A stretch of DNA of 35,653 bases from a virus. The number at the start of each line of letters is the position of its first letter. Within the stretch, counting starts at the first letter, position 1. The stretch is from positions 1 through 35,653 of the IMG/VR virus record IMGVR_UViG_3300041997_000045. One strand, written 5' to 3'. The notes beneath the pieces were generated by a model. It was not told the origin of the DNA, searched no databases, and saw only the letters and a list, made by a program, of their open reading frames with translations. The translations under genes were made by a program, and so were the position numbers. Positions 7,880-35,346 of the stretch are shown here, piece by piece.

Positions 7880-8083
7880 GGCGAATACTAGGCGAACAGT
7901 TAACAAAACAAGTTGATAATCAATATATTAAGATTCCTGTTCTGGGCACCGGACAAATCCCCGTAGGTACAGTAAACACTGTATTTACGGGGATTTTTAC
8001 TTATATTGCCATCCAATTAAATCCAATTTTTTCCACGTTTTACCGGGCTTTTTGGCCCACATTTGGCGAACGTTATGGCGAAC
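7880..8083 (+). repeat. GGCGAA repeats flanking the integrase leader
   Basis: GGCGAA occurs in two close pairs: 7880 and 7891 (11 bases apart), and 8065 and 8077 (12 bases apart), on either side of the terminator and just at the integrase start. About one helical turn of spacing suggests cooperative protein binding, for example by Xis or integrase arms. Confidence 0.45.
7955..7998 (+). terminator. Strong intrinsic terminator before the integrase
   Basis: The segment 7955-7973 pairs with 7978-7996 around a 4-base loop (AAAC), giving a 19-bp stem with two G-U pairs. The lower half is AAATCCCCGTA with TACGGGGATTT, and a T5 run closes it. It lies 76 bases after the 7642 gene and separates that operon from integrase transcription. 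The A-rich left side could also allow it to work on the other strand. Confidence 0.8.
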
Positions 8084-9154
8084 ACTATTTCTATTTCCAC
8101 AAAGCTTTCCCGAGACAAGTCTAAGATATGGCATTATTTAGAATGGGGCAAGGCCGCAGGCCAAAGGCGGGCAACCGGGATTTTTACCTGGGCAAAACCA
8201 AAAGATCAGGCGCAGAAAAATTATAATAAGGAGGCATTAGCAATCCTGGAAACGAAAAGATCTCAGCTTTTGCTTGATCTGCAAGCCGTTGCCACCGGCT
8301 ACGTACCTTCACATAAGCTCAGAGATAATTTCCTAGATTATTACGATGATTTTGTTAAGGCTAATGAACGCCCCGGCAATCGTAGTTTATCTGCCAGCTT
8401 AACTGCTTTTAAGGCATTTTTAGGACGCGAAAGAATTGCAGCAAGTGAGATTACAGAGAACCTTTGTGAACGCTTTCGTTCATATCTGCTTGATAACCTG
8501 AAAGGCGAAACGCCTGGGGATTATTTCATGCGATTCAAGCGCGTCCTGAAGTCAGCCATGAAGGACGGATATTTCAGGGTTAGTCCAGCAGAGGATGTAA
8601 AAGTTAAGGTTCACCCCAGCCACCAAAAAGATATATTAGAGGCAAATGAATATATAAAGTTAATGAATACTCCCTGTAGCAATCAAGAGGTTCGCCGGGC
8701 CGCGATATTCTCTTTATATACTGGTTTGCGTTGGTGCGATATAGAGCCCCTAGAGTGGCAGGATATTAAACCCAATAGTGTAGTATTAAAGTCCCAAAAG
8801 AAAACCAAACAACGTGTTGAAATACCCCTCCATGATATCGCAAAACAAGTAGTGGAGAAACGAGGAACCGGGAAAGTTTTTGATCTGCCGACACAAGATG
8901 GGGCAAACCTTGTGTTGAAGACGTGGGTAAAAAATGCTGGCATCAGCAAACATATTACATGGCATTCGCTCAGACATTCTATGTCAGTTCTACTTCAGGA
9001 CGCGGGTGTCGCGGTTGCCACGGTTGCTGGGCTACTTGGGCATACTACCAGCAAATATGTCCATAAAACATATCAAAGATACAGACCACCTGCCGGCGAA
9101 GATGCTATTAAGAAGCTTCCTTCACGATCACCAATGTCTGATGGGGGAAATTAA
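8075..9154 (+). CDS. int: Tyrosine integrase
   Basis: 359 residues from ATG 8075; an in-frame TTG at 8063 exists but is less likely. The N-terminal 190 residues contain the arm-binding and SAM-like core-binding domains (NFLDYYDDFVKANE, LCERFRSYLLD). The catalytic domain shows Arg219 in TGLRWCDI, a Lys in KSQKKTK, His297-x-x-Arg300 in WHSLRHS, His323 in LLGH and the nucleophile Tyr333 in HKTYQRY. All of the canonical catalytic residues are present, so it should be active in phage integration and excision. It is convergent with the XRE gene, whose stop begins on the next base. Phage genes flank it on both sides. Confidence 0.9.
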   Translation: MANTISISTKLSRDKSKIWHYLEWGKAAGQRRATGIFTWAKPKDQAQKNYNKEALAILETKRSQLLLDLQAVATGYVPSHKLRDNFLDYYDDFVKANERPGNRSLSASLTAFKAFLGRERIAASEITENLCERFRSYLLDNLKGETPGDYFMRFKRVLKSAMKDGYFRVSPAEDVKVKVHPSHQKDILEANEYIKLMNTPCSNQEVRRAAIFSLYTGLRWCDIEPLEWQDIKPNSVVLKSQKKTKQRVEIPLHDIAKQVVEKRGTGKVFDLPTQDGANLVLKTWVKNAGISKHITWHSLRHSMSVLLQDAGVAVATVAGLLGHTTSKYVHKTYQRYRPPAGEDAIKKLPSRSPMSDGGN

Positions 9155-9373
9155 TTAGTATTTGAGCAAATCCGATACAGTGATGCCGAACGCCTCGGCT
9201 AACGCATAGATATAAGTGAGGCCCGGGTTCATGGTTCCTCTTTCTATTTTTCCGATATAGCCCGGATCTAATTCAGCTTCGTGGGATAAGTCAACCTGTG
9301 ACCACCCTCTTTCTTCACGAAGCTGCTTAATCCTCGCACCAAACTGTTTCTTAATATGTTCGTCATTCTGCAT
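9155..9373 (-). CDS. XRE-family HTH repressor
   Basis: 72 residues from ATG 9373. The longer frame starts at a TTG inside the putative control region and is rejected. IKQLREERGWSQVDLSHEAELDPGYIGKIERGTMNPGLTYIYAL-like spacing gives helix 2 (SQVDLSHEAE) and recognition helix 3 (DPGYIGKIERG) of the lambda/Cro-type domain. There is no extra effector or dimerisation domain, so it is Cro-like in size. It is divergent from the 9484 gene and shares with it a 110-base region with palindromes, as expected for a lysogeny switch. Its targets might include the late operators, but that is only a guess. Confidence 0.75.
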   Translation of the reverse strand: MQNDEHIKKQFGARIKQLREERGWSQVDLSHEAELDPGYIGKIERGTMNPGLTYIYALAEAFGITVSDLLKY

Positions 9374-9427
9374 CTGAAAGCGAACATATACAGTTTTATT
9401 ATAATTATATCTATACAATCATACCTG

Positions 9428-27552: not shown

Positions 27553-27960
27553 TTAGTTGCTGTATTTGCGTTCCACGTGATATAATCTTACTTGGGCCGA
27601 CATCGTACCAGAGCCGGTAACGACGATTCGGTAGTAAACTGCCGGCGCAGTCACCTTAGCGAATAGTGCCGTATTGGTGGTCACGTTGGCCAAGGTCAAT
27701 GTGTCGCCCGCTGGTAGGTAGTTTGTGCCATCGAGACTGTAATAAAGGATCGCCGTACCAGCTACAGTGCCAGATATCTTGGTGATCACCGGTTGCACAC
27801 CGATGGCTGAGTAGCCAGCGGTTGCGGTGAACGTCTTGGTTACTGTACCGGCATTAACCACCGTGTCACCGGCTATGAGCGGCATAAGTGTTGCTGACTG
27901 AGCGCAGGAGGCCGTTACCATACCAATCACCAGCGCAACAGCGAGAAGTAAACGTTTCAT
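27553..27960 (-). CDS. Signal-peptide protein next to the major capsid gene
   Basis: 135 residues with a clear signal sequence: KRLLLAVALVIGMVTASCAQ. The Cys in TASC might be lipidated, but -3 is Thr rather than Leu, so simple cleavage after ASCA is equally possible. The mature part is a beta-sandwich-like domain (AILYYSLDGTNYLPAGDTLT, YYRIVVTGSGTMSAQVRLY). It sits in the late operon right after the major capsid gene, the place of head decoration or head completion proteins. An export signal there is odd: see findings. Confidence 0.65.
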   Translation of the reverse strand: MKRLLLAVALVIGMVTASCAQSATLMPLIAGDTVVNAGTVTKTFTATAGYSAIGVQPVITKISGTVAGTAILYYSLDGTNYLPAGDTLTLANVTTNTALFAKVTAPAVYYRIVVTGSGTMSAQVRLYHVERKYSN

Positions 27961-27987: not shown

Positions 27988-29037
27988 TTAGGATGCCTGG
28001 CCGATCAGATGAACAACAGAGTCACCAACTACAGACAACGGAGGTAATGCATACGCTATCGTTAGGGTGATCTCCCATTGATCTACGATATCCTGAGTAC
28101 TACCGCCGGTAGTGTTAGCGGAAGTGTCGGCTCTCTGAGTATACATGGAGATATCGGCACGAGCACCGGAGCCGAACGGGTCTTCCTGAGTGCCAAGTGT
28201 GCCAATTTCGTTTTCTCCAGCGTTAACACCAGTTTTGTTCAGTTGATCATTCCAGTACATGCCTGCAAATGATTTGGATGGCATGAATAGGGCCGATCCA
28301 AGCGGGTAAGCACTGGAAATAACGTCCTGTGTGGTGCCTATGGAAGCGCCACCGAACTGGAAGGAGGTGTTCGTGTTGTTCGCTGTTCCCTGCTGCATCT
28401 GGAATTCGAATTCCGCTGCTGTCTGCAGATCAGCTATCACGTCCAGGGAGCCGGTAAAATACCTGGCTGCCATGTATATCTTAGCCATCTGCATGAAACG
28501 CGCCTTACGGTCCTGACCGATTTCCAGTGCGTAGTTGGTATCGTTGTATGTGCCTGGATTGGCGGACGCTATTTGAGGGTTGATGGTTGCTGCAGGGAGC
28601 TGCATCCTGTTCGCAATCAGGAAGGCAAGGGCGCTGGTATCATGCCTGTTACGCAGGTTCTTCCAGTGTTCCTCATAAAGATTATTCCACATCGTCTGAT
28701 AGGTCAGCACGTTGTTCTGTGCAATCTTACGAGGCAACGAAAAGGTTTCCACATGAGACACATACACCAGCTCAACCTTTCCGCTATCACCATAAGTGCC
28801 GGTGTGGTTGTATGCTTTGGTGGTGCCAGACTGCTGGCCAATCTTTGTCTGATAGTAAATTTCAACGGGGCGCTTGTCTGACTTTCTGAGGTCAACGGCA
28901 TTGGGGATGGAGTATTCCTGGTTCTTGAGTGCCAACTCCATCACTGTAGGCAGCTTGCGTCGCTGTTCAGGTGCTTGATTCCTCTTGGAAACAATAGCCT
29001 GACCTTTAGCAAGCACGCTCGTAGCGTAGTTCGCCAT
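27988..29037 (-). CDS. Major capsid protein
   Basis: 349 residues from ATG 29037 (MANYATSVLAKGQAIVSKRN). The frame also holds an ATG at 29109, inside a leader hairpin, which would add 24 atypical residues. The protein lacks a signal peptide, has a long helical region (LYEEHWKNLRNRHDTSALAF, RKARFMQMAKIYMAARYF) and ends in a strand (DQWEITLTIAYALPPLSVV). Its place after portal and scaffold-like genes, its size, and its separate promoter and structured leader support the call. No proteolytic delta domain is obvious; assembly would rely on the 29856 protein as scaffold. Confidence 0.75.
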   Translation of the reverse strand: MANYATSVLAKGQAIVSKRNQAPEQRRKLPTVMELALKNQEYSIPNAVDLRKSDKRPVEIYYQTKIGQQSGTTKAYNHTGTYGDSGKVELVYVSHVETFSLPRKIAQNNVLTYQTMWNNLYEEHWKNLRNRHDTSALAFLIANRMQLPAATINPQIASANPGTYNDTNYALEIGQDRKARFMQMAKIYMAARYFTGSLDVIADLQTAAEFEFQMQQGTANNTNTSFQFGGASIGTTQDVISSAYPLGSALFMPSKSFAGMYWNDQLNKTGVNAGENEIGTLGTQEDPFGSGARADISMYTQRADTSANTTGGSTQDIVDQWEITLTIAYALPPLSVVGDSVVHLIGQAS

Positions 29038-29078
29038 GGTACAATGTGATTGTGTGTGAAAGAATGTTGTGAGTTGTT

Positions 29079-29159
29079 GGAGTACCACTCCGGAGTTGTG
29101 GGATACCATCCCGAGAAGAACCAGGTACCACCTGGGCGAATTAGCGGGGAGCTAATTCG
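29079..29159 (-). promoter_or_regulatory. Structured mRNA leader of the capsid gene: four hairpins, three with UGGUA apex
   Basis: Reading on the minus strand from the likely start of transcription: hairpin 1 (29159-29137) has a 9-bp stem CGAATTAGC/GCTAATTCG and loop TCCCC. Hairpin 2 (29135-29121) is CCAGGT-GGT-ACCTGG, hairpin 3 (29112-29100) GGGAT-GGT-ATCCC and hairpin 4 (29091-29079) GGAGT-GGT-ACTCC. The last three differ in their stems but keep perfect pairing and the same TGGTA apex, as expected for a selected RNA structure. The capsid ATG is 42 bases further on. UACCA at 29041-29037, overlapping the start codon, is complementary to the apex. Confidence 0.75.
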
Positions 29160-29162
29160 AAT

Positions 29163-29189
29163 CAAAGGTATAGATAAAATCTATTACAA
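29163..29189 (-). promoter_or_regulatory. Promoter and operator of the capsid gene
   Basis: Minus strand TACCTTTG (29170-29163) is an exact TAnnTTTG -7 match; TTG at 29189-29187 lies 16 bases upstream, shorter than the ideal 19. The spacer holds ATAGATAAAATCTAT (29170-29184), identical to a site in the terminase promoter. Transcription would start near 29157, at hairpin 1. Confidence 0.7.
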
Positions 29190-29272: not shown

Positions 29273-29524
29273 TCATTCAAACGGTTTTTTGTTGCATGAA
29301 TTGCACCATAAATATGACAGCCCATTAATATCCATCATTTTTTCTGGCTTCTTTCCACAATCATAGCAAACCTTATTTTCCTCATACGCTTGTATATCAC
29401 GTAGCATGTTTTCTTTTCTTAACGGTCTATACCGCTCGAAATTCTCTATAAGTTCGCGGCTTTGTGACAAAAGTTGCTCTGCATGCTTTAGCCGTTCAAT
29501 GGCCTGTTCGCCTGTTATAGACAT
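29273..29524 (-). CDS. Zinc-ribbon small protein
   Basis: 83 residues. The N-terminal 50 residues are helical (EQAIERLKHAEQLLSQSREL). The C-terminal part has CYDCGKKP and LWCNSCNKK, two CxxC pairs about 20 residues apart, a zinc ribbon. It lies between the scaffold-side genes and the capsid promoter, preceded by a terminator and a weak -7 match (TATCTTTA, minus strand 29548-29541), so it may be expressed separately. DNA-binding late regulator or assembly factor are both possible. The 235 bases after it hold the capsid promoter, a 14-bp palindrome (29204-29217) and the leader. Confidence 0.65.
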   Translation of the reverse strand: MSITGEQAIERLKHAEQLLSQSRELIENFERYRPLRKENMLRDIQAYEENKVCYDCGKKPEKMMDINGLSYLWCNSCNKKPFE

Positions 29525-29583: not shown

Positions 29584-29856
29584 TTATTTTACGAATGGGT
29601 ATTGTGTACCTATAGAAACAGGCGGCGTACCGGTGCCGGTGACATAAAGCCACACCACACCAGTACGTGCCACTTCTTCTTTTTCTGAATCAGTCAATTG
29701 CCAACAAGATATGATTGTCGGGGCGGTATTGCCCTGCGTGTCGATGGGCACATTACCTTTATAGACAGGCAAGCTTTGACACTGTTCATCGGTTTAGCCT
29801 ACGGGCTTACCGAACGTAAAGTTTGATTCTGGGAAGTTGATTGGCTGCATCGGCAT
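29584..29856 (-). pseudogene. Small conserved late protein interrupted by in-frame TAA
   Basis: From ATG 29856 or 29850 the frame reads MQPINFPESNFTFGKPVG, then TAA (29796-29794), and continues in the same frame as TDEQCQSLPVYKGNVPI and further to PFVK at 29584. The part after the stop also reads as normal protein (IISCWQLTDSEKEEVARTGV). The two halves together look like a family of about 90-residue proteins with INFPE near the start and a CWQL...VWL element later, which I recall from Bacteroidota phages. A TTG at 29772 could restart translation for 62 residues. Single-base change, suppression or sequence error are possible. Confidence 0.6.
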
Positions 29857-30680
29857 TAGTTATAAAAGTCAAAATCAGGTACGTCTTTCGTTACGGTATC
29901 GAGGTATTTGGAGAACTCAGGCGAAACCGTGTTACCGCCTGGATTATCTTTTAACCATGCTTCCTGAGCAGCAGATAACGTCTTTATTCCGCCTGCGCCG
30001 CCCGTAACTGTTGTATCATTACCACCCCGGCCACCAGCAGTACCGGTACTTCCTACCCATTTACGCTCAGTGAAGTAGTCAGCCAGCACCTTGTCCGCTG
30101 CGAGAGGGTTTTGCGTTGCTTTATCACGGACAACATCGCCATTGCGCTTTACAACAGTTTTACCATCCACCTCTTCAAAGGATAGATCCATTTTAGCCAA
30201 TATAAGGCGTTCACTGTCCTTTAAATCGGCCGTTCTACCTGCTGGGAACCAAGAGATCAACTGAGTATCAAAGGCGGCTGATTTAGCTGCCTTTTCAAGA
30301 TCTCCTACCTTTGCTGTCAACGTTTCTTTGTCCCTGATAAGGTTTGTTACCTGCTCTTTCAGAACAGGATCACCCTTAGAAGCCTTATCAGTTACCAGGG
30401 TCACGATTTTATCGAGTTCCTTAGTGTCATCCTCAATGGAGAATGCTTTCTTCAGCGCCTTTGCCGCCAACTCTTTCCCTTTGGTTTCACCTTCCTTTTC
30501 ACCAAGTTTCTTACCCTCGTTAACCTTATTAGCATCACGAGCTTCGAGATCTTCTTTTTTGAAGACCTCTATTTCAGGTAGAGCATAGTCCACCTCATTT
30601 TCTTCCTTTGCTGCTGCTATCAGCTTATCTGTATCAAGCCCCCAGGACTTTAGTTTTGCAATTACTTCAGCTTTTAACAT
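29856..30680 (-). CDS. Scaffold-like protein
   Basis: 274 residues, acidic, with long helices and a coiled coil (AFSIEDDTKELDKIVTLV, LKEQVTNLIRDKETLTAKVG). Near the N-terminus is EKEGETKGKELAAKALKKAF; the middle has a FPAGRTADLKDSERLIL segment; then a Gly/Thr-rich linker and a short C-terminal tail. Position before the capsid gene and composition match phage scaffolds of the GP20 type. The start is preceded by ACAGTGAACA. The stop TAA overlaps the ATG of the interrupted gene by 1 base. Confidence 0.75.
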   Translation of the reverse strand: MLKAEVIAKLKSWGLDTDKLIAAAKEENEVDYALPEIEVFKKEDLEARDANKVNEGKKLGEKEGETKGKELAAKALKKAFSIEDDTKELDKIVTLVTDKASKGDPVLKEQVTNLIRDKETLTAKVGDLEKAAKSAAFDTQLISWFPAGRTADLKDSERLILAKMDLSFEEVDGKTVVKRNGDVVRDKATQNPLAADKVLADYFTERKWVGSTGTAGGRGGNDTTVTGGAGGIKTLSAAQEAWLKDNPGGNTVSPEFSKYLDTVTKDVPDFDFYN

Positions 30681-30714: not shown

Positions 30715-31248
30715 TTATTTCAGCAGGTAATACCTGCCAGAATTACGCACCTGCGCGTTCATTTCCAGCGCGGTCTTAACATCTACTCTCGTTTGATGGA
30801 TCGGCCTGTCGTTGATGATGTCAATGCCGGTCATATCCTTGGGTGTATCCTTCAGCCCCGAATAACGTTCGGTGATCACCGGGTTAACCTTGTACACGAG
30901 AAAATCGTGCATGTCATGCCATGGCAAGCCATGAACATACGCCTCGTACTTCTTGAAGTTCTCACCGGTCAGGTTCTTATAATCAAACTTCGGATGACCT
31001 TTACTTTGTGCTGGGGCTTCGCCTTCCGTTTCACCTGGCGGGTTGACGTTGGGCGCGGAGTGATCGCCACCAGCAGCAGCTGTCACGGTCGGCAACGGAT
31101 TGGGGGACGTGCCGGTAAACAGTTCAGCGAGTAAAGCATTCGCTTCTTCTTCGGTATTACCGTCTTCCAGAATCAGCTTTTTCAGTTCTTCTGCGGTTGT
31201 CCCCTGCTCTTTAAGGGATGCAAACCTTTTCTTTTTCAGATGATGCAT
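30715..31248 (-). CDS. Hypothetical late protein
   Basis: 177 residues. The N-terminal part is helical and basic/acidic (LKKKRFASLKEQGTTAEELK), followed by a Pro/Gly/Ala-rich linker (TAAAGGDHSAPNVNPPGETE) and a globular end (DYKNLTGENFKKYEAYVHGL, DMTGIDIINDRPIHQTRVDV). Not recognised. By place between portal and scaffold, it is possibly a head morphogenesis protein or an internal capsid protein. No protease motif is visible. Confidence 0.65.
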   Translation of the reverse strand: MHHLKKKRFASLKEQGTTAEELKKLILEDGNTEEEANALLAELFTGTSPNPLPTVTAAAGGDHSAPNVNPPGETEGEAPAQSKGHPKFDYKNLTGENFKKYEAYVHGLPWHDMHDFLVYKVNPVITERYSGLKDTPKDMTGIDIINDRPIHQTRVDVKTALEMNAQVRNSGRYYLLK

Positions 31249-31519: not shown

Positions 31520-33259
31520 TTAGTTTAAAGCTGGCTTTACTGGCTCCGGTTCTGGCAGATTCTTAGCCTTTACGAACTCCTTAAGCTTTTCGCGGAGCTT
31601 ATTCGTGTCAGTAACGATCACCTCTATATCCGAGATGGTACTGTACCATTCTCCGAAGTAGAGCTTACAGTTAATATCCAGCTGGTCAGTAGCCACTGCC
31701 TTTACCTCTCCTATTCTTAAATGCGGGAAAGGCTCTACATACAGCAGTTTAAGCCTGTATGCCAGCTCCATAGGGCTGTTCTGATAGATGGCATGGTAAT
31801 ACTTCTCCAACGCCTCATAAAGGGCGCTTTCCGGCGCTCCTTTCGTTCTCAGGTCAAGGTATTGATCCATCAGCTGATCGGGCGTCTCCAGGACATAATA
31901 GCGTCCGTAGGCAATAGCCGCTTTCTTGAACCCTTCCCGGAACCAGAATTGACCAATAAATTCTGCGAATAATATTTCTGTCTTTTCTGCCCAGTCAGCA
32001 GTTTTGTTTAACCGGCTGTACCGGGGCTGCAGGTCGGTCATTGTCTTAGTTGCCGTTTCCTGCACTTCCTGGACCTTTTTGGCACCTGTCACCTGTTGCG
32101 GCTGTGATGTACCCCAGTAGGTGAGTTCTATCAAATTTGCCAGGTCTGCCAGGCTCGTATCCTGCTTCTCCCATCCCTGGACGTCAGGTGATACGTAGCC
32201 GAAGAAATTGCGGAAGTCAAACCTGCTTTCAGCCATTTCCAGCGGGAACCGGGCAACATCGGACACTTTTGTTTGCATCTTATATCCAGTTCCCTTATCA
32301 GCACCTGCGGACGAACAATCAGGGCAGGCTTTACCAGCCAGGTAGCCAGTGCCGGCGCATTTCCCGCAGGTCATAAGCGGCTCAACTGCCTTGCTGAATC
32401 CGTGGTATTTCTTCTGCAGGTCACGTACGGAGCGGTCGTAAAGGAAACAGTCTGCCAATTCGGTTGTATAATCCAGCGGGGAAAGGAAACATTCCGGATC
32501 ATTAAACTGCATGAGGTCAGAGATAATAAACCCTGGCACACGCTTCCAGATATTCTCTATGGTGTCATCTACCGGCATAACAGGGTCTACTTCATTACCC
32601 GACCATTTAACGATGATATCCTTTGCGTCATCAATAAACCGATAGTAAGTAGTCTTTGTATTCTTGGTGAACTGCTTCAGCTCATCATCCTTTACACCGA
32701 AAGACAATGCCTCACCGGCAGTCAGTCTGAAGGCAACATGCTCCAGGCGGCGGCCGGTGGTATCGTAATTGTATATAGAGTAAATGGATTTGTAAGTAGG
32801 GTAAGTTTTGGGCGTCTGGGGATTAACACTGTTGGGGTCCATCTTCTCCACCTCCATCAGGAAGACGCCCATGGGATCACACCGGTATGCCGGCAAAGCA
32901 AATGTTTGTATCCACTTCCGGAGGCTCATACCATACCTCACATTCTCCAGGACAGCGTTCATCTGCTTTTCCCGGCCTTCCGGCAGGTTGAACGAAGTTG
33001 AACCGCCCTTTGCACTGAAGATCATATCTTCCTGCTGCAGGAGGCGGCTGTATAAGTCTTTATTGGATATGGCATACTGTTTACGAACCTTATATGCCTC
33101 AATGTTCTCAAAGTAGTCACAACGCGGAAGAGCTGACGACATACCGACACCCTGCACGTGCAACATGAGCTTATCAGCCATCTTGCGCCCCTTCTCTATC
33201 CGGCCCTTTGATGGATTGAGCTTTATAATGTCTGAAATCTGTTCGAAAGTGTATGTCAT
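31520..33259 (-). CDS. Portal protein with zinc-binding Cys motif
   Basis: 579 residues from ATG 33259 (MTYTFEQISDII). The 33313 frame start is a TTG and is rejected. Directly after the large terminase, size and the mixed helix pattern fit the portal. Residues 298-325 hold TCGKCAGTGYLAGKACPDC, a CxxCxGxG...CxxC motif like the DnaJ zinc centre or a rubredoxin-like knuckle, in the middle of the fold. That is not part of the usual portal core. The C-terminal region (HLRIGEVKAVATDQLDIN) and the Pro-rich end are normal. It probably forms the dodecameric DNA channel. Confidence 0.75.
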   Translation of the reverse strand: MTYTFEQISDIIKLNPSKGRIEKGRKMADKLMLHVQGVGMSSALPRCDYFENIEAYKVRKQYAISNKDLYSRLLQQEDMIFSAKGGSTSFNLPEGREKQMNAVLENVRYGMSLRKWIQTFALPAYRCDPMGVFLMEVEKMDPNSVNPQTPKTYPTYKSIYSIYNYDTTGRRLEHVAFRLTAGEALSFGVKDDELKQFTKNTKTTYYRFIDDAKDIIVKWSGNEVDPVMPVDDTIENIWKRVPGFIISDLMQFNDPECFLSPLDYTTELADCFLYDRSVRDLQKKYHGFSKAVEPLMTCGKCAGTGYLAGKACPDCSSAGADKGTGYKMQTKVSDVARFPLEMAESRFDFRNFFGYVSPDVQGWEKQDTSLADLANLIELTYWGTSQPQQVTGAKKVQEVQETATKTMTDLQPRYSRLNKTADWAEKTEILFAEFIGQFWFREGFKKAAIAYGRYYVLETPDQLMDQYLDLRTKGAPESALYEALEKYYHAIYQNSPMELAYRLKLLYVEPFPHLRIGEVKAVATDQLDINCKLYFGEWYSTISDIEVIVTDTNKLREKLKEFVKAKNLPEPEPVKPALN

Positions 33260-33263
33260 TGAC

Positions 33264-34703
33264 TTAGTTTGAGTACCCGTAAAACTTCTTCTGTCTGGTG
33301 CTATATGTGGCAAATTCCGATGGCAGCAATGTTGTAATGAAGTAGCGTTTAGCGTCGCTAAAGTGACCGTATCTCTCGAAGGTTTGTCCTGTATCCTTAT
33401 TCTTTTCCTTTGTCTTTAATATCCCTCCATTCATATCTTCTTTGGTCATTGTGTAATCCTCAATAGACTTCCTGCATTTGGTGTCAATCACTATGCTCCA
33501 TCCCTCATAATTTGACTCGTAGATCTCGTTTATAAAGCCGCCGCTGATCGCTACACCTGGAGCAGACTTCCCGACCCTGTTTACATATCGAACTGGCGTT
33601 TTAGCGAATTCACCCAAGTATTTATCAAAGAAGCTGCGCCCTTCGTCATCCTCTGTAGATTTGGCATTTGCTGAAGGATCTCCATAGATAAAGACAATCC
33701 CTTCATGTCCTTGCTTTAGTAGCCATTCCAGCGTCTTTTTAGCTGCTTTGGAGGCCGTATTGTTTGGATATTCACATGGCAGCTCATCAATCTGTTTAAG
33801 CACTTTATTTGCCATATCTACCTGCCATATCCCAACTGTAATGTATGGCGTTGAGTTGTTATCCAAGGTGATATGTAGAGCATCCTGCACATATCCAACA
33901 CTCCTCGTGTGCTGGATCTCGTCAAAACACTTCCAGAATGATCCGCCAGTACGTCGGAAGCCCCAAAGGCCCAAGGTGTATACCTGGTACCAGTAGGCAT
34001 TGTTCTTACTGTTCTTATAGCCCTCATACAGGGCTTTTCTTTGTGGTTTACAGTAAGGATTGTCCTTGTATGTGGAATGAGTAACTCGGATCTTAAAGGG
34101 CACTTCCCCTACGTCTGGTACGTCAATTACCTTGGTCCAGGTGAAGGAAAGTTTAGTTGTGTGCTCGAAATACTCTTTGTAAAGCCAGAAATCAGTATAG
34201 TTACCGTCACACTCTGGGTTAAAGCTGAACCAAGTCTTTACCTGCTGGTTGGCCCTCAATGAGGTAAGGATAACTACGAAGTCCTCGCTGGTGATTTGGT
34301 TGCCTTCTTCTATCCAACAGTGAGACGGATTGTTGAAAGACTTAATACGTCCTACATCGTCCAGTCCACGACCATAGAACCCGTTCTTATTCGCCTTACA
34401 GATGATCTCTAATCTCGTCTCATTGAAGGTGAAGAGGTGTTTTAACCCCCACTCATCAATAACCGACTTTATTAGGTCGTATTGGCTACTTCGCACTGTA
34501 TTAAGCACCTTTCTAACAAGGAGGCACTTGAAGTACTTTTGCCGCATACAGTCAATAACCAGCTGCATCGCTATGTGCCGGCTCTTACCAGAGTCACGGC
34601 CACCATACAAGAAGTCTATATCAAAGAACTCAGTATCATGAACCAGATGGCGGTAAACCTCCAGAAAGATCTCATCATCCAATTCTATGTTCACTACCGG
34701 CAT
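33264..34703 (-). CDS. terL: Terminase large subunit
   Basis: 479 residues. The Walker A is GGRDSGKS (34-41) and Walker B is HCWIEEGNQ with Glu132-Glu133 as acid pair. The nuclease half shows Asp281 (TLDNN), Asp342 (YGDPSAN) and Asp450 (FSDAKRYF), fitting an RNase H-like nuclease. This is the Terminase_3 (PBSX-like) type. It would package phage DNA through the portal, cutting concatemers. It starts on the last base of the small subunit's stop and lies 4 bases before the portal. Confidence 0.9.
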   Translation of the reverse strand: MPVVNIELDDEIFLEVYRHLVHDTEFFDIDFLYGGRDSGKSRHIAMQLVIDCMRQKYFKCLLVRKVLNTVRSSQYDLIKSVIDEWGLKHLFTFNETRLEIICKANKNGFYGRGLDDVGRIKSFNNPSHCWIEEGNQITSEDFVVILTSLRANQQVKTWFSFNPECDGNYTDFWLYKEYFEHTTKLSFTWTKVIDVPDVGEVPFKIRVTHSTYKDNPYCKPQRKALYEGYKNSKNNAYWYQVYTLGLWGFRRTGGSFWKCFDEIQHTRSVGYVQDALHITLDNNSTPYITVGIWQVDMANKVLKQIDELPCEYPNNTASKAAKKTLEWLLKQGHEGIVFIYGDPSANAKSTEDDEGRSFFDKYLGEFAKTPVRYVNRVGKSAPGVAISGGFINEIYESNYEGWSIVIDTKCRKSIEDYTMTKEDMNGGILKTKEKNKDTGQTFERYGHFSDAKRYFITTLLPSEFATYSTRQKKFYGYSN

Positions 34704-35278
34704 TAACCACCGCTCTTTTTGATTATAATGTTTAGGTTGACACCCTCATCAGGTTTCTCGCTCCACATACCCAAATGACGCCCTATTAGCTCCAAAGACT
34801 TTATTTTGTCATGAAGCTTCAGCTCTATTCCTTCTTTGGTCTGTTTGATTGATGCTACAGCGCGGAGTTTCTTCTTATCGACCTTTTCAGTCTCGAAAAT
34901 ATCAACTGTTTTAGCGGTCCAAGTATTTGTTATAGGCTTACCCTCATCGTCCAGCCCCAGCACTTCTGTATGGGTTTGTTCCTCCACTTTCAGGAAATCG
35001 TCGATCCTGGCGAAACCGACAGACGCCAATTCCTCCAGGACTCGATCTGCCTTAACTTCAGTTCGGGCTGACCGTTTATCCATCAATTCCTTTATGTATG
35101 CTTGAACCTTAACATTTGACAACAAACGGGATGCTTGCTGTTGAGCGGTTGCTGTGGAGTATTTAGCGCGAATAGCCGCCTTTAGACCATTGAGATCAAT
35201 GATATATTCCTCGCAAAACCTTTTCTGTTTTGGAGGAATAGAGGATGTGTCAGATATGTGATTATCCTTTTCTTTCAT
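34703..35278 (-). CDS. terS: Terminase small subunit
   Basis: 191 residues. PKQKRFCEEYIIDLNGLKAA, then IRAKYSTATAQQQASRLL and KVQAYIKELM match the Terminase_2 (PF03592) N-terminal HTH domain, which binds pac or cos DNA. The C-terminal half is helical (VDKKKLRAVASIKQTKEGIE). It is the first gene of the packaging unit, about 40 bases after a strong promoter. It overlaps the large subunit start by one base. Confidence 0.85.
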   Translation of the reverse strand: MKEKDNHISDTSSIPPKQKRFCEEYIIDLNGLKAAIRAKYSTATAQQQASRLLSNVKVQAYIKELMDKRSARTEVKADRVLEELASVGFARIDDFLKVEEQTHTEVLGLDDEGKPITNTWTAKTVDIFETEKVDKKKLRAVASIKQTKEGIELKLHDKIKSLELIGRHLGMWSEKPDEGVNLNIIIKKSGG

Positions 35279-35316: not shown

Positions 35317-35346
35317 CAAAGATATAGATAAAATCTATTTATTCAA
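35317..35346 (-). promoter_or_regulatory. Late promoter and operator of the terminase operon
   Basis: Minus strand TTG (35346-35344), 19 bases, TATCTTTG (35324-35317): full match to the Bacteroidota consensus. The spacer contains ATAGATAAAATCTAT (35324-35338), the same palindrome as in the capsid promoter at the same place next to the -7 element. Further half-sites TAGATAC lie at 35311-35317 and 35356-35362. Confidence 0.85.

Follow-up and report, generated by a model that had tools for sequence, protein, structure and literature searches.

The DNA analysed here, referred to as the window, is the virus record IMGVR_UViG_3300041997_000045 from IMG/VR (positions 1 to 35,653), and its minus strand carries the head module of a tailed phage. 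This module comprises a terS-like ORF assigned by position (34703-35278), the large terminase (33264-34703, Pfam Terminase_3), the portal (31520-33313, profile match), a 76-aa gene and a 177-aa gene (30715-31248) that are both listed between the portal and the scaffold-like gene, a scaffold-like protein assigned by position (29856-30680), and the gene for the 349-aa major capsid protein (MCP; 27988-29037), which matches the virion structural protein family phrog_7231 (E 1.8e-23) and whose homologue in phage Pan5 is annotated as major capsid protein. The integrase at 8063-9154 makes a temperate lifestyle probable. A terminator-like hairpin (29578-29555, minus strand) lies in the gap from scaffold to MCP, ahead of the MCP promoter, and the same gap holds an 83-aa ORF (29273-29524, minus strand) with two CxxC motifs and a weak ArfGap match under the Pfam cut-off; relatives have other small genes at this site, which is likely one of gene gain. 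The gene following MCP (27553-27960, minus strand) is homologous to the Pan5 'cement protein', and its product possesses a signal-peptide-like N-terminal stretch with a lipobox-like ASCAQ at its end, which is odd for a capsid decoration protein.

Upstream of MCP we identified a Bacteroidota-type -7 box, TACCTTTG, at 29163-29170 (minus strand), based on the sequence and the published consensus TAnnTTTG (PMC7366714), which predicts a transcript start at about 29160. Four hairpins begin 3 nt past this box and lie between the promoter and the MCP AUG at 29037, all on the minus strand. Hairpin 1 (CGAATTAGC-TCCCC-GCTAATTCG, 29137-29159) is 5'-terminal, sits at the predicted transcript start, and has 9 bp and a UCCCC loop, while hairpin 2 (CCAGGT-GGT-ACCTGG, 29121-29135, 6 bp), hairpin 3 (GGGAT-GGT-ATCCC, 29100-29112, 5 bp) and hairpin 4 (GGAGT-GGT-ACTCC, 29079-29091, 5 bp) each present a GGU triloop and are followed by a G-poor, unstructured spacer of 41 nt (29038-29078). 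The initial annotation, made from the sequence of the window by itself, had described four perfect stem-loops within 81 nt (29159-29079), the last three with different stems and one common apex, and both descriptions hold; the predicted start also lies upstream of the whole array rather than downstream of 29079. A palindrome-plus-promoter sequence, ATAGATTTTATCTATA(C/T)CTTTG, occurs on the minus strand at 29163-29184 and at 35317-35338, ahead of MCP and terS respectively, as well as in the MCP leaders of L001-L003 and of the otherwise divergent L305, and reads as a shared late promoter, possibly together with an operator.

Folding the 146-nt leader gave -37.0 kcal/mol and a z-score of -2.3, which is only modest; the improbable feature is the repetition of one loop. 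None of 2000 dinucleotide shuffles of the window leader contained at least three hairpins of at least 5 bp with one triloop. Nine other leaders possess three or four same-loop hairpins (each 0/2000 shuffles) and seven possess two (at most 4/2000), with a further eight array leaders, whose hairpins are imperfect, shorter or of mixed loop, not individually significant by the strict shuffle count. No second cluster of same-loop hairpins was found in the window, and among the phages compared arrays of at least three occur once per genome, at the MCP leader only. Scanning the whole collection for three spaced GTGGTAC motifs gave coding repeats in the 120 stretches listed, a result that carries no weight either way; two further pattern scans, for single hairpins, picked up clusters of several hairpins ahead of MCP genes and, in L203, a lone pair that looks unrelated by eye.

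We gathered MCP homologues from IMG/VR, one Chitinophagaceae MAG, 11 of 399 Chitinophagaceae genomes (the MAG included) and named phages. Array carriers, mostly phages of Bacteroidota, have MCPs 26-82% identical to that of the window and include Chitinophagaceae prophages and one cyanophage, with two to four such hairpins at the equivalent place whose arms differ and whose pairing is intact. These hairpins were seen first in 16 viral-contig leaders and afterwards in those of prophages and Pan5, and they are present in all members with an MCP at least 55% identical as well as in Pan5 (MCP 26.5% identical, host Pseudanabaena), L256, L303, L304 and L308; the loss of hairpins or broken pairing among relatives that the initial annotation had named as telling against it was not what we observed. 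In two named phages whose MCPs are about as distant, Polaribacter P12002L and Rhodobacteraceae LS06, the leaders are short and free of these hairpins, and the L305 leader has no array of the GGU-hairpin kind. In IMGVR_UViG_3300020045_002914 (L033 8001-9051, the same contig as L014), the MCP frame is split into 143 and 185 aa, reflecting a sequencing error or an interrupted gene.

A covariance model built from the leaders of the window, L003, L001 and L002 matched the MCP leaders of L303 (8e-8), L036 (7e-7), L163 (2e-5) and Pan5 (1.3e-3), along with those of L016, L014, L012, L030, L256 and others, and nothing outside leaders scored better than E = 4 across 590 kb. Applied to 399 host genomes under strict filters, with which weak sites can be missed, it returned two sites, both MCP leaders. 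Within the four leaders used for the model, and with the structure taken from the window, 93.9% of pair cells are standard and 9 of 25 pairs show two-sided changes, against 22-52% paired for slid controls and shuffled controls that never reach the observed value. Most of this covariation comes from hairpin 1 (two-sided compensatory change in 7 of 9 pairs), and L001 and L002 show A-U to C-G compensation in hairpin 3 and A-U to G-C compensation in hairpin 4. With four sequences, we regard the covariation as supportive of a paired RNA, short of conclusive.

The initial annotation had taken UGGUA as the shared apex, which it is in the window; among relatives the closing pair changes (C-G or A-U in Pan5 and L256, C-G or U-A in L303, U-G in L007 and L009), so that the shared unit is a GGU triloop on a stem of about 5 bp and the U-A is merely a closing pair. 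Counting every triplet, whether paired or not, we found GGU capping stems of at least 5 bp in 46 of 100 instances in leaders versus 154 of 15645 (1.0%) elsewhere in the same phages, while ACC caps such stems in 0 of 42 instances in leaders, where most other triplets are also low. What can be recognised is thus the sense-strand GGU loop, and this favours an element acting as RNA. Stem changes that keep pairing, the enrichment of stem-borne GGU in leaders and the covariation together bear out the suggested selection for RNA structure. Tandem short perfect inverted repeats near a promoter might instead act at the DNA level, as sites for a DNA-binding protein or as a mobile palindromic repeat, but we find this scarcely plausible, given that the arms differ and the loop alone is kept (the opposite of a DNA operator), that GGU is always on the sense strand, that no phage genome shows a second array of at least three hairpins, and that the U-G closing pairs of L007 and L009 pair in RNA only.

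Two sequence details emphasized at the outset proved largely local to the window. The UACCA complementary to the apex does overlap the capsid AUG (29041-29037), yet it is not conserved in relatives: 2 of 25 leaders have TACCA no more than 12 nt from the AUG, and L012, one of the two, has no GGU loop. We therefore rejected base pairing between apex and start site. Likewise, the AUG within hairpin 3 (29109) is in frame with MCP and opens a 373-aa ORF without a stop, yet relatives mostly have GUG or no AUG there, and we rejected it as a controlled start because it is not conserved.

What is kept is position. Of 25 leaders, 16 have a last hairpin that ends 39-44 nt from the AUG, the full range being 27-86; among the larger distances, several come from leaders with a compound last hairpin that the count missed. 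The centre of the last triloop is a median of 48 nt from the AUG with a median deviation of 2 nt, versus 4 for hairpin-to-hairpin distances. The last 38 nt before the AUG have a mean identity of 37% among 14 leaders, and this retention of distance without retention of sequence suggests a link to translation initiation. Ribosomes of Bacteroidota do without Shine-Dalgarno pairing (PMC9976891), so that one would expect their landing zone to be open and unstructured, and the array stands just upstream of it. Levivirus coat operators (MS2, PP7, Q-beta) resemble the array in that a short hairpin on capsid mRNA has a loop serving as recognition signal and capsid production is the target, but they consist of one hairpin overlapping the AUG, while the array has several, mostly bulge-free triloop hairpins, the last of them ending 39-44 nt upstream in most leaders, and belongs to double-stranded DNA tailed phages, with a putative binder. 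As about 41 nt separate the hairpins from the AUG, placing them outside the usual ribosome footprint, MS2-like repression by simple steric hindrance is unlikely.

Stabilisers of the ompA type place a stem-loop at the very 5' end of an mRNA, and hairpin 1 begins at the predicted transcript start. The array might be a passive 5' stabiliser and spacer, its stems shielding the abundant capsid mRNA from 5'-dependent decay and keeping the ribosome site open with no binder involved, and folds and promoter boxes do place a hairpin near the predicted start in most leaders, hairpin 1 keeps its pairing and not its sequence, and the spacer is G-poor (4.4% G over those last 38 nt). We nonetheless consider this rather unlikely, as it leaves the common triloop of the other hairpins and its concerted change (below) unexplained; to our knowledge, GGU closed by variable pairs is not an extra-stable loop.

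Sitting where a long late transcript begins, the array could also be a processive antitermination or anti-pausing signal for the late operon from MCP onward, either nut/boxB-like with a phage protein or put-like and acting on RNA polymerase. Like the array, lambdoid nut sites put a short hairpin (boxB, read by N) at the transcript start, with a loop particular to the phage and a specificity that varies between phages. Unlike nut, however, the array has several same-loop copies at a near-constant distance from the AUG, which fits translation better, and the stretch of the window from MCP to the tail genes has no strong intrinsic terminator, only weak ones (e.g., 24708-24685). In many leaders the region after the array resembles CAACAWTTTTTCA, but no boxA could be demonstrated. 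HK022 putL likewise lies just downstream of its promoter and is structured at the 5' end of a phage transcript, but put RNA is about 70 nt of two long stem-loops that contact RNA polymerase and need no dedicated protein (PMC9378689), whereas here three or four hairpins, the shared ones of about 5 bp and with coevolving loops, precede a late gene. Antitermination thus seems distinctly unlikely to us.

Evaluating loops across leaders revealed that they change together. All three hairpins carry GGA in L030 and GGC in L302, L308 carries CGC/UGC/UGC, and L012, L013 and L032 carry NGU loops. With hairpins called regardless of loop, within-leader agreement amounted to 42 pairs versus 24.4 expected (0 of 20000 permutations), and in the non-GGU leaders alone to 6 versus 1.3 expected (36 of 20000). 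On the MCP tree, some forks of which are weakly supported, the switched members stand beside GGU members (L308 with Pan5 and L256, L030 with L007 and L009, L302 with L301, L032 with L163), indicating that several lineages switched loop independently, in concert within each phage, with GGU as the ancestral state. Because the hairpins of one leader have arms unrelated to each other, their shared loop is not explained by recent duplication.

Such loops could in principle be read by a host factor, whether a CsrA-like protein (GGA loops), threonyl-tRNA synthetase (NGU resembling Thr anticodons) or the ribosome. Most phages do have NGU loops, and the AGGGA of the L030 loops fits ANGGA. CsrA/RsmE arrays such as CsrB and RsmZ similarly expose one short loop motif on many hairpins for multivalent binding, but here the motif is mostly GGU (GGA in L030 only) and lies in cis on an mRNA, and none of 26 records from phages and hosts had a CsrA that passed the family cut-off, with control genomes positive. 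The GGC, NGC and GGA loops break the Thr rule, for which reason we also discarded a thrS-type tRNA mimic (Thr anticodon NGU), and the array model at E 0.01 found no host site outside prophages. Moreover, L301 (GGU), L302 (GGC) and L308 (NGC) are prophages of one host family, which makes a shared host reader unlikely, and we deem host recognition very unlikely overall. With loops changing in concert within a phage and differing among sister phages of one host family, the simplest reading of the switches would be a phage-encoded loop reader, and for this reason we retain binding by a phage protein, among the functions initially proposed, as the best one.

Judged from sequence comparison, then, the array behaves as a conserved, paired, loop-specific RNA element that is dedicated to MCP and held at a near-fixed distance from the AUG. 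Beyond this, we propose, at a probability of roughly 0.5, that it is a cis-acting, multivalent element of the MCP mRNA read by a phage protein that would set MCP yield. The triloops would be several copies of one site for a single phage-encoded RNA-binding protein, which, bound just upstream of the ribosome landing zone, would set the amount of MCP through translation initiation, protection of the mRNA 5' end, or both. The likeliest partner would be a head protein made alongside MCP, namely MCP itself, the scaffold (29856-30680) or the 177-aa protein (a candidate partner only), in which case control would be autogenous and stoichiometric. That one of these three is itself a triloop-specific RNA binder on a multivalent operator, coevolving with the loops so that each lineage has its own code, we advance tentatively, as possible but on balance doubtful.

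Of the window genes, the 177-aa gene alone was detected in each of the 14 array phages compared at first and went undetected in both named relatives that lack the array. Of 10 additional host loci, 6 also have it, and it was not found at L316 and L317, the most distant two; it was likewise undetected at a pair of loci that do have arrays, L321 (leader L304) and L315 (leader L308), weakening its correlation with the array, which shared descent explains equally well. Its product is not rich in basic residues and has no match above noise in Pfam, PHROG or PDB, and its structure model (mean pLDDT 78.7) has no significant match in PDB or BFVD; we place no reliance on a weak match to lambda gpFI. 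Among the conserved genes examined no RNA-binding domain was found. The N-terminal domain of the 177-aa protein was rejected as loop reader, being absent from several GGU phages, and an HTH gene (9155-9418) was dropped as a common array-phage gene, its similarity being merely at the superfamily level.

Overall, the array works like known loop-recognition elements while lacking, or not demonstrably sharing, their defining features. Rfam 15 gave no family in the window at gathering score (the best leader match, E 1.8, is far under it), and we found no description of the array in open-licence papers. If the proposed reading is correct, the array would represent a new family of phage regulatory RNA tied to capsid genes in Bacteroidota phages and one cyanophage, offering a natural series of RNA-protein specificities (GGU, GGA, GGC, NGC, NGU) that could yield orthogonal RNA-protein pairs for engineering Bacteroidota, and it would bear on how capsid dosage is controlled in hosts whose ribosomes ignore Shine-Dalgarno sequences (PMC9976891).

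Some leaders possess hairpins of other designs. By eye, those of L306 and L307 contain, about 50-120 nt before the MCP AUG, a repeated stem-C-AAGRUAC-G hairpin that has a 7-nt loop and one base bulged out of its 3' side and seems to appear in place of the GGU hairpins. In L005 and L006, the first two leader hairpins are a more elaborate version, combining a GUGGUAC apex with an internal loop (UGGC or CGGC against AAAG) and outer stems that covary (TTCAG/CTGAA, TCGG/CCGA).
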